DNA from: Pseudotamlana agarivorans
GTDB lineage: Bacteria; Bacteroidota; Bacteroidia; Flavobacteriales; Flavobacteriaceae
Length of the DNA: 64,000 nucleotides
Direction of reading: 5' to 3'
Assembly: GCF_001642835.1 (NCBI RefSeq)
Contig: NZ_LXEI01000009.1
Span: forward strand, 124,001 to 188,000
Each line of letters opens with the position of its first letter. The first letter of the stretch is position 1. Below the pieces are notes generated by a model. That model did not search any database. It was not told the origin of the DNA and saw only the letters and a list, made by a program, of their open reading frames with translations. The position numbers and the translations under genes were made by a program. Positions 51,219-53,213 of the stretch are shown one piece after another.

Positions 51219-52076
51219 TTATAAAACCATTTTTTCAATAGGACAAACTAAAATACCTTGCGCACCTTTAGCTTTTAGGTCGTCGATAACATTCCAAAAT
51301 TCATTTTTGCTAATCACAGAGTGAATCGAACTCCATCCTTCTTCCGCTAAAGGTAAAACGGTTGGACTTTTCATACCTGGAAGTACATTAATAATGTCTT
51401 GAACTTTATCGTTTGGTGCGTTTAGTAACACATATTTAGAATCCCTTCCTTTTAAAACCGATTTGATTCTAAATTGGATGGTATCTAAAATTTCTTGTTT
51501 TTCCGCTGTTAATTTTGGAGAAACCGCTAAAACAGCTTCCGAAGTTAAAATCGTTTCTACTTCTTTTAAATTGTTTTTAAACAAGGTACTTCCACTAGAA
51601 ACAATATCACAAATAGCATCAGCAAGCCCAATATTTGGAGCGATTTCTACCGAACCATTAATGATGTGTAGGTTTGCACTAACACCGTTTTCCTTTAAAT
51701 ACATTTCTACGGTATTCGGATACGATGTTGCAATACGCTGACCTTCTAAATCTTTAATTGAATTGTAATCTGTAGTTTTTGGTACAGCAATACAAACACG
51801 ACAGGTTGAAAAACCAAGCTTTTCTACAACATTAATTCCGGCGCCTTTTTCAATTAAAACGTTTTCACCGATAATAGCCGCATCAACAACGCCATCTTTT
51901 AAATACTGAGGAATATCGCCATTTCTCAGATAGAAAACTTCAACTGGAAAATTCCTAGCCGATGCTTTTAATTGGTCAATACCATTGTCGATAGAGATCC
52001 CGATATCTTTTAAAATTCTCATCGAGTCTTCATTTAATCGACCCGATTTTTGTACTGCAATTCTTAATTTACTCAT
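51219..52076 (-). CDS. hisG: ATP phosphoribosyltransferase (long form)
   Basis: A 285-residue HisG of the long type. The two periplasmic-binding-like lobes (KLRIAVQKSGRL, LADAICDIVSSGSTLFKNNL) are followed by an ACT-like regulatory domain (from about residue 210), which senses histidine. It needs no HisZ. It is the first enzyme of the pathway and the first full gene of the operon. The start at 52076 is an ATG. The longest frame begins at a TTG nine codons upstream, near the attenuator. Confidence 0.96.
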   Translation of the reverse strand: MSKLRIAVQKSGRLNEDSMRILKDIGISIDNGIDQLKASARNFPVEVFYLRNGDIPQYLKDGVVDAAIIGENVLIEKGAGINVVEKLGFSTCRVCIAVPKTTDYNSIKDLEGQRIATSYPNTVEMYLKENGVSANLHIINGSVEIAPNIGLADAICDIVSSGSTLFKNNLKEVETILTSEAVLAVSPKLTAEKQEILDTIQFRIKSVLKGRDSKYVLLNAPNDKVQDIINVLPGMKSPTVLPLAEEGWSSIHSVISKNEFWNVIDDLKAKGAQGILVCPIEKMVL

Positions 52077-52120
52077 TTTAATGGTTTTATGAGTTTGAAA
52101 CAATTTAGTTGATTTTTGAA

Positions 52121-52155
52121 AAATAAAAACCCGCTTGATTGTCTCAAACGGGTTT
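52121..52155 (-). terminator. his operon attenuator terminator
   Basis: On the minus strand the 12-nt arm AAACCCGTTTGA (52155-52144), loop GACAA and the arm TCAAGCGGGTTT form 12 pairs with one G-U wobble, followed by TTATTTTTC. It lies 45 nt ahead of hisG and after a His-rich leader ORF. The 5' arm can instead pair with CTCAAGCG inside the leader ORF (52193-52200), giving an antiterminator. Confidence 0.85.
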
Positions 52156-52186
52156 AATTTATATGTTGATTTTATTCAATACAAAT

Positions 52187-52240
52187 TCATTTCGCTTGAG
52201 TGCAAATCTGAAAATGATGATGAATATGAATAAAAGTCAT
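52187..52240 (-). CDS. hisL: his operon leader peptide
   Basis: A 17-residue ORF, MTFIHIHHHFQICTQAK, starting at an ATG preceded by AGGAG. Residues 5, 7, 8 and 9 are His (CAT codons). The ORF ends 31 nt before the terminator. Ribosome stalling at the His codons when charged tRNA-His is scarce would free CTCAAGCG (codons 14-16) to block terminator formation. The gene is too short for usual ORF finders. The function is read from arrangement, not proven. Confidence 0.85.
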   Translation of the reverse strand: MTFIHIHHHFQICTQAK

Positions 52241-52259
52241 GTCTTATATTTTTCTCCTA

Positions 52260-52292
52260 CAAATATCTATAATAAAAATGATATATTCCAAA
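52260..52292 (-). promoter_or_regulatory. putative promoter of the his operon
   Basis: On the minus strand TTTG (52289-52292), a 21-nt spacer and GATATTTG (one mismatch from TAnnTTTG, 52260-52267) lie just before the leader ORF. The decamer CAAATATCTA is repeated at both elements on the plus strand. Confidence 0.5.
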
Positions 52293-52397: not shown

Positions 52398-53213
52398 TTA
52401 CTGATTTCCTAATATAATAGGCATGCCACTGTCGCCAGAACCAATTACCACAACCTTACTATTTGGAGATTCTGCTAATTTTATAGTAGCTTCAATGCCT
52501 TTATCTTGTAAAATTTTATCGGTTAATGAAGCACTTAAAATTCTATTCGCATCAGCTTTACCTTGAGCCTCAATAATTACTTTTTCTGCTTCTTTAGCAG
52601 CTGTAACCAATCTGAACTCATATTCTAAAGACTCCTGCTCCTGCCCTAATTTACGCTCAATAGCATCTTTAATAGCTGTTGGAAGTGTTACATCACGAAC
52701 AAGCACTTCAACTAAATTAATATATTGATCACTTACAATTTTTTTACTTTCATCGAATATTTCTTGTTGAATGGCGTCTCTTTTAGAAGAATAAATTTGC
52801 TCTGGAGTATAGCGTCCAACAACCGATCTCGTAGCTGAGCGCATCGCTGGCTTTAATACACGATCTAAATAATTAGCACCCTTTTCTTGATGTAATTTCC
52901 CCAAATCTTTAATATCTGGCATGTACCAAGCCGTTGCTTCAAGCTGAATATCTAATCCATTTGAAGATAACACTTTCATACGCTCTGTTAATTCTTGTTG
53001 ACGTACCTCGTAAACAAACACCTTATTCCATGGCGCCACGATATGAAAACCTTCACCAAGTGCTGCTTCATCTGTAACAACACCTCCTCCAAACGTTTTA
53101 TATAATACACCTGCTTCACCAGAACCTATGGTCACAGCCGATTTTGTTATTATAACAACCAGTACAACGACTGCAATGATAAAGGGTAAAGCTATTTTAG
53201 GTAATTTTTCCAT
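52398..53213 (-). CDS. SPFH/band 7 domain protein (prohibitin/HflC-like)
   Basis: A 271-residue membrane-anchored scaffold. One N-terminal helix (IALPFIIAVVVLVVIITK) is followed by the band 7 domain (about 28-190, GEAGVLYKTFGGGVVTDEAA) and a coiled-coil tail with AKEAEKVIIEAQGKADAN. Proteins of this group form large rings in the inner membrane and regulate proteases such as FtsH. It lies 12 nt after a VWA membrane protein gene. Confidence 0.93.
   Translation of the reverse strand: MEKLPKIALPFIIAVVVLVVIITKSAVTIGSGEAGVLYKTFGGGVVTDEAALGEGFHIVAPWNKVFVYEVRQQELTERMKVLSSNGLDIQLEATAWYMPDIKDLGKLHQEKGANYLDRVLKPAMRSATRSVVGRYTPEQIYSSKRDAIQQEIFDESKKIVSDQYINLVEVLVRDVTLPTAIKDAIERKLGQEQESLEYEFRLVTAAKEAEKVIIEAQGKADANRILSASLTDKILQDKGIEATIKLAESPNSKVVVIGSGDSGMPIILGNQ

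Follow-up and report, generated by a model that had tools for sequence, protein, structure and literature searches.

The region ahead of hisG in Pseudotamlana agarivorans very probably controls transcription of the his operon as a ribosome-mediated attenuator, in which a His-rich leader ORF would govern the choice between an antiterminator and a terminator. Within the window, the whole 64,000-nt stretch of DNA analysed, hisG (51219 to 52076) lies on the minus strand and heads the gene series hisG-hisD-hisC-hisB-hisH-hisA-hisF, with 7 of 7 his genes from hisG to hisF matching NCBIfam models above cut-off. Among the best 80 of 551 confirmed stretches, the closest named relatives of HisG belong to Tamlana species (Flavobacteriaceae), with 92–97% identity. 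Reading along the minus strand, a promoter-like GATATTTG is followed by the leader ORF, a 31-nt spacer, the terminator, a U-rich tail and 43 nt that lead to the hisG ATG.

Promoter-like element, leader ORF and competing RNA segments

The promoter-like element pair (52260 to 52292, minus strand) consists of TTTG at 52292–52289 and GATATTTG at 52267–52260, the 3′ end of the latter located 19 nt upstream of the leader ATG. Together these elements are presumably of the Bacteroidota TAnnTTTG promoter type, and transcription would be expected to begin near 52255, shortly upstream of the leader ORF. Matches to TAnnTTTG at 5 or more of 6 positions within 50 nt 5′ of the leader ATG are present in 80/80 sequences (the window and 79 relatives), a count that alone would say little in AT-rich DNA; the spacing, 17–19 nt from the leader ATG in 54/80, would be the better evidence of a promoter. 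Placed ahead of the ORF, the element speaks indirectly against a transcription start downstream of 52187, which the preliminary description had named as contrary to its reading. In a Maribacter-like clade (L046, L054, L058, L069, L071, L072, L075 and L081), the promoter-like element is TACTTTTAC, TACATTTAC or TACATTTG and by eye its 3′ end stands merely 6–7 nt before the leader ATG; the promoter scan chose alternative placements 13–14 nt away in some of these loci. The leader ORF of this clade may be leaderless.

The leader ORF, MTFIHIHHHFQICTQAK followed by a stop codon (52240–52187, minus strand), consists of 17 codons with His at codons 5, 7, 8 and 9, each written CAT, as had been reported in a preliminary description of this DNA. 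Its account of a 12-bp terminator with a U-rich tail also holds, the hairpin reading AAACCCGTTTGA-GACAA-TCAAGCGGGTTT at 52155–52127. In the numbering used here, segment 2 is the antiterminator 5′ strand CTCAAGCG (52200–52193, codons 14–16), segment 3 is the terminator 5′ arm AAACCCGTTTGA (52155–52144), which is common to pairings 2:3, 3:4 and 3:5, and segment 4 is the terminator 3′ arm TCAAGCGGGTTT (52138–52127), followed by the tail TTATTTTT (52126–52120), all on the minus strand. As first described, CTCAAGCG pairs with CGTTTGAG (52150–52143) through seven Watson-Crick pairs and one G-U pair, and the terminator 3′ arm contains a near copy, TCAAGCGGG, so that segment 2 and the 3′ arm compete for segment 3.

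Hairpin 1:2, the promoter-like GATATTTG, segment 5 and the class-wide spread presented below are all additional to that description. Hairpin 1:2 lies within the ORF (52206–52191, minus strand), where TTTGC at 52206–52202 pairs with GCGAA at 52195–52191 around the loop ACTCAA; its form is XUUGC-loop-GCGAX′, and segment 2 sits in its loop and 3′ strand. Between the leader stop codon and the terminator, the stretch TGTATTG...CAACATAT (52183–52161, minus strand) consists of near-invariant columns across the family in a 58-row alignment, in which its pairing finds no consistent support past UUG/CAA; it is possible that this stretch forms a weak (pause) hairpin. The 148-nt stretch 52262–52115 folds at −35.3 kcal/mol, compared with −19.5 ± 3.2 kcal/mol for 200 shuffles (z −4.9).

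Under the proposed mechanism, a scarcity of charged His-tRNA would cause the ribosome to halt at the CAT run with its leading edge just short of segment 2, and the free segment 2 would pair with segment 3; with 2:3 formed, the terminator 3:4 could not form before RNA polymerase clears the U-tract, and the his genes would be transcribed. When His-tRNA is plentiful, the ribosome would reach the stop codon and cover segment 2, segment 3 would pair with segment 4, and transcription would end near 52120. With no ribosome on the leader, hairpin 1:2 would compete against 2:3 and may also pause the polymerase.

The spacing of the leader is consistent with exposure of segment 2 by a stall at His and its coverage at the stop codon. 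Counted between first bases, the last His codon of the run lies 15, 16 or 17 nt upstream of segment 2 in 73/77 leaders, a distance that holds although the leaders vary from 2 to 6 His, and 3 nt separate the end of segment 2 from the stop codon in 73/77. Given the size of the ribosome footprint, segment 2 starts approximately where a His-stalled ribosome would be expected to have its leading edge. In a sample of the class, the His-to-segment-2 distance is 10–28 nt at the 25 loci where the 2:3 duplex is significant. When 80 leaders were folded with the bases under the ribosome blocked, the mean probability of 2:3 before segment 4 exists was 0.96 for a ribosome stalled at His, 0.00 for a ribosome at the stop codon and 0.55 without a ribosome. 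In equilibrium folding with segment 4 out, 3:4 beats 2:3 in every state (0.97–0.98), and the switch must therefore be kinetic.

Conservation, covariation and spread

Of 551 stretches confirmed in the HisG scan of named genomes, the best 80 were retained and are therefore the nearest relatives; 79 of these had upstream DNA, L031 being omitted because its contig starts at hisG. The preliminary description had called for a comparison with related genera, and neither the His run nor the stem pairing is lost in the window or its 79 relatives: leaders containing HH, with 2–6 His overall, are found in the window and 79/79 Flavobacteriaceae relatives having upstream DNA, and the terminator is present in 80/80. 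The 58-row alignment took 58 of the 80 sequences; the other 22, with a best 3:5 duplex of 4–8 bp in 16 and 9–13 bp in 6, showed either insertions ahead of hisG or a segment 5 that was absent, short or displaced. A second alignment took 50/80 sequences.

Covariation supports the antiterminator, which is predicted to be exclusive with the terminator. In the 58 rows, 94.1% of 2:3 cells are paired, compared with at most 50% when slid, and the first pair (UA 20, AU 12, GC 4, other 22) is the sole 2:3 pair changed on both sides. The ungapped 2:3 duplex inside the ORF measures 7–9 bp in 77/80 and 6 bp in 3/80; two of the three 6-bp cases (L036 and L074) have a stop in place of the Gln codon, and the pairing sequence can be seen by eye to continue beyond it.

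For hairpin 1:2, 94.5% of cells are paired in the 58 rows, compared with at most 49% when slid, with a change on both sides at only one of the five pairs. This closing pair X-X′, formed by second codon bases, is TA in 38, CG in 31, AT in 7 and TG in 2 of the 78/78 sequences that could be placed (2/80, L074 and L078, were unplaced). Because the closing pair has three Watson-Crick types at second codon positions, two leader residues change in step, one located four before the last Ala and one located one after it (residues 12 and 17 in the window), giving I with K or N in 38, T with S or R in 28, N with I in 6 and other combinations in 4. These compensatory changes at amino-acid-changing codon positions support hairpin 1:2 as a likely RNA structure, and the residues at the leader end vary so that the RNA pairs stay, which argues for a role of the RNA and against one of the peptide. 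The attenuation logic put forward in the preliminary description thus gains support from compensatory changes in 1:2 and 2:3, from ribosome-fitting spacing and from the predicted folding of the ribosome states.

A covariance model of the element reaches 127.6 bits at this locus, and nothing else in the 3.83-Mb genome exceeds 31.8 bits, such that the sole strong copy in the genome of P. agarivorans stands at hisG. The model matches 42/60 relatives at E ≤ 0.01, including G161 and G176 (37 and 35 bits), which have no hisG match, making near-threshold matches unsafe, and it misses relatives that have hisG and a leader of different sequence (e.g., G163 and G168). In the same genome, of the regions upstream of ilvD, hisS and four of five aspartokinase matches, a leader-like ORF was found at one aspartokinase only. 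This Thr-rich ORF, MTIFGTTTNITTLWGC (L152; contig C50, upstream of the match at 88804–90174, minus strand), precedes an open frame of 815 aa that matches aspartokinase, and by eye no clear intrinsic terminator accompanies it; the ORF looks like a threonine leader.

Leaders of this type extend well beyond the family. An even sample of the class comprised 158 genomes, 69 of which have a hisG match including P. agarivorans itself, and the 68 other upstream regions were scanned for an ATG ORF of 7–45 codons with at least 3 His including HH, ending 50–220 nt before the match. Such a leader is present in 58/68 regions, compared with 1/68 on the antisense strand and a mean of 1.15 in shuffles (maximum 4 in 20), and the same run test for other amino acids gives at most 12/68. 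A further 3 regions have a GTG-start candidate alone (that of G055 being doubtful), and no leader was found in 7/68. The ATG leaders occur in 26/32 families of the sample and differ widely in sequence (e.g., MKRTVLHHHHHHYNGQ and MKKHLHIHHHAVPQG); that leaders of very different sequence share this layout suggests that the logic outlives the letters.

A terminator was detected after 50/61 class-level leaders, and a competing duplex near the leader stop in 25/50 at p ≤ 0.05 (2.5 expected) and in 11/50 at p ≤ 0.01, counts given as computed by a script that picked an incorrect or overly long ORF at a few loci (e.g., G064, G009, G073 and G107). The other 25/50 terminators have no significant ungapped competitor, and the scan found no terminator after 11/61 leaders, so some relatives may work otherwise; in G048 and G083, negative in the scan, an imperfect hairpin that it rejected is visible by eye. 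In G038, G076, G106 and G135 (f39) and in G089 and G118 (f16), the His-run leader precedes hisG with no terminator detected in between, and G089 and G118 have a common GGTGACG...TTTCACC downstream of the leader. Loci of this kind may use another readout, such as translation or Rho.

A search of the order covered 118 genomes, 74 of them with a match, and 66 upstream regions were scanned, omitting the fragment matches G171 and G246 and the already covered G000, G020, G062, G095, G125 and G151. Outside one genus (f76/g133), a leader and terminator are present in 46/47, the exception being G185. In genus g145 (G214, G224, G234 and G244), leaders like MHHHHHFHVQAGR have His already at codon 2, and a stall would therefore come directly after initiation.

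The genus f76/g133, whose genomes fit Blattabacterium in size (600 kb) and in order, has no His-run leader in 19/19 genomes with hisG (L165–L167, L169, L171, L172, L174–L176, L178, L182–L187 and L224–L226). Within 330 nt 5′ of hisG, 19/19 have a promoter-like TATATTTG as well as a GCTTAC..GTAAGC hairpin with T after it, and 13/19 have ATGCATTAA (Met-His-stop) within 160 nt. The leader region of this genus may be either a decayed or a minimal sensor, and with promoter and terminator kept and the sensor lost, these genomes would constitute a natural loss experiment.

Two other explanations can be considered. The nearest gene upstream of the leader on the same strand, SPFH-like by eye yet without an NCBIfam match, has its stop at 52398, approximately 240 nt away, and 71/79 relatives have a homologue no more than 3 kb upstream, placements that would suit a hairpin serving as the ordinary terminator of that gene beside a chance His ORF. 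However, the 8 relatives without this homologue nonetheless have the leader and terminator, and both the recurrence of ATG His-run leaders across class families and the covariation inside the ORF speak against chance, making this explanation extremely improbable. Since any stall ahead of segment 2 would presumably antiterminate, the element could also be a general attenuator sensing translation speed or antibiotics, or the His-rich peptide might act itself (e.g., in metal binding). This is scarcely more credible, as no other residue comes close to His in enrichment in the class upstream regions, the only strong copy in the genome stands at hisG, and the residues near the leader end change so as to preserve RNA pairs.

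A fifth segment ahead of hisG

Segment 5, ATTGTTTCAAAC (52104–52093, minus strand), ends 16 nt before the hisG ATG and is complementary to GTTTGAGACAAT (52149–52138), which covers the loop together with a portion of segment 3 and one extra base. Its distance to the hisG ATG has a median of 16 nt (quartiles 16 and 17.25), and its sequence follows that of its partner by clade: GATTGTTTC is found for GAGACAATC, GATTTACTC for GAGTAAATC and ATTTGTTC for GAGCAAAT. Within one genus, TGTACTC or TGTGCTC is found for GAGTACA or GAGCACA, and outside the family GTCTGAG is faced by CTCAGAC, CTCAGGC or CTCGGAC. In the 58 rows, 97.2% of 3:5 cells are paired, with four doubly changed pairs, a percentage biased upward since these rows were chosen partly for having segment 5.

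An unselected test of 3:5 covered 135 upstream regions, of which 122 have a terminator core; a core-only anchor was found in 87 and not in 35. Loop positions 2, 3 and 4, which were unused for anchoring, pair in 79, 79 and 77 of 87, compared with shuffle means of 40.3, 45.5 and 62.5 (maxima 54, 60 and 73 in 2000), and loop positions 1 and 5 (84 and 66 of 87) show no excess over shuffles (82.1 and 63.7). Over the 80 family members, the mean 3:5 duplex energy is −13.1 kcal/mol, compared with −4.7 kcal/mol when shuffled and −8.9 kcal/mol against downstream stretches swapped in from loci with another loop; the own duplex beats the swap mean in 67/80 and every swap in merely 7/80. With 100 shuffles each, the 3:5 duplex reaches p ≤ 0.01 in 66/80 family members, and in the order in 31/46, including 16/16 of f2 and 9/16 of f1. 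Segment 5 recurs in several Flavobacteriales families, and in other relatives it is weak or absent (e.g., L009, L014, L018, L019, L021, L035 and L037).

Segment 5 is made after the terminator and should therefore not decide termination; its position before the hisG ATG points instead to translation or stability. Our best guess is that segment 5 captures segment 3 in readthrough RNA, tuning hisG translation or mRNA stability. It could do so in cis, taking segment 3 from segment 2 after readthrough, either by itself or in a pseudoknot that involves the lower terminator stem (AAACCC/GGGTTT), a reading that we hold tentatively and at well under an even chance. Its location and the median duplex energies (2:3 −10.4, 3:5 −14.0 and 3:4 −16.4 kcal/mol) agree with this. 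However, the capture of segment 3 from segment 4 failed in nested folding, where 3:5 averages just 0.03–0.05 because 3:4 wins (a pseudoknot falls outside this folding), the predicted accessibility of the hisG start is nearly constant between states, and segment 5 is absent from a minority of relatives.

Alternatively, segment 5 might be a target in trans, in which case the terminated leader RNA of approximately 135 nt would use its terminator loop and 5′ arm to pair with readthrough transcripts in the hisG 5′ UTR and would repress hisG translation. The attenuator RNA of Sinorhizobium trpL provides a precedent for action in trans. The leader peptide is the subject of PMC7298713. In favour of this model, the complementarity includes the exposed loop of the terminator, and its covariation follows the clades; however, covariation does not distinguish cis from trans, and segment 3 of the terminated RNA is locked in hairpin 3:4, and we regard the model as unlikely.

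Across both the cis and trans forms, the his attenuator of the Flavobacteriales may quite possibly, if at somewhat less than an even chance, be a three-way switch, in which the terminator 5′ arm has segments 2, 4 and 5 as partners and attenuation is tied to a post-transcriptional decision on hisG (translation or stability) through a cis pseudoknot or a trans leader RNA.

Relation to known systems and meaning for the Bacteroidota

The his operon attenuator of enteric bacteria (hisL; Rfam family His_leader, RF00514) likewise has a run of His codons in a short ORF before hisG and exclusive antiterminator and terminator hairpins. The element described here differs in that segment 2 occupies the last ORF codons, hairpin 1:2 lies wholly within the ORF and an extra segment 5 stands before hisG; we know of no counterpart of a fifth segment in classic attenuators. 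At the gathering score, Rfam has no match in the window, including His_leader RF00514 and T-box, and up to E 10 the leader has 16 weak matches, all below the gathering score and including neither RF00514 nor T-box.

The Bacteroid-trp RNA (RF01692) belongs to the same phylum and is present in the same genome, where its sole reported match (C5:62489–62612, 61.4 bits) precedes a trpE-like gene whose best NCBIfam model, TIGR00564, scores 426 bits, below the cut-off of 517.7; RF01692 has no match at the his locus. A trp leader, MNTFLNNTWWWCFRN (L150 1521–1568, with WWW), and a terminator stand ahead of the trpE-like gene. That system would respond to tryptophan rather than histidine, and by eye it has no segment 5, there being approximately 10 nt from the U-tract to the assumed start codon. 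A table in PMC2864571 has a Bacteroidetes row for Bacteroid-trp. With a Bacteroid-trp match and a WWW leader in the same genome, Bacteroid-trp is a precedent for amino-acid leader peptides in Bacteroidota.

In bacilli, a leader of hisZ/hisS* likewise combines a His-codon ORF with a terminator, and differs from the his operon leader described here in serving synthetase paralogues in Firmicutes (Naville and Gautheret 2010, PMC2965389); that study describes leader peptides as known in Proteobacteria and Actinobacteria and adds the bacilli, and the term 'bacteroid' is absent from its main text. Amino-acid control of his genes in Gram-positive bacteria can involve the T-box riboswitch (PMC9413887), whereas sensing here would be by the ribosome. 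An article on his genes of the Bacteroidota superphylum mentions attenuation once, in its introduction to regulation (PMC8305728), and short ORFs reminiscent of leader peptides appear in an account of Bacteroides (PMC7366714). Among the papers listed from an incomplete, largely open-access literature, an earlier his attenuator of Bacteroidota was not found. A survey of attenuators by Lopatovskaya et al. (2010), cited in PMC4833913, might include Bacteroidetes cases. To judge from the sequences compared, the element is a known logic carried by a widespread Bacteroidota family, with segment 5 as one further part.

Ribosome-mediated attenuation requires a ribosome close behind RNA polymerase, and Bacteroidota ribosomes initiate largely without Shine-Dalgarno pairing. 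That a covariation-supported his attenuator occurs at most of the hisG loci sampled in the class suggests a coupling of transcription and translation in these bacteria, and the attenuator would be a ready reporter for testing such coupling. If the three-way switch exists, it would link transcription attenuation to a second decision, on hisG translation or stability.
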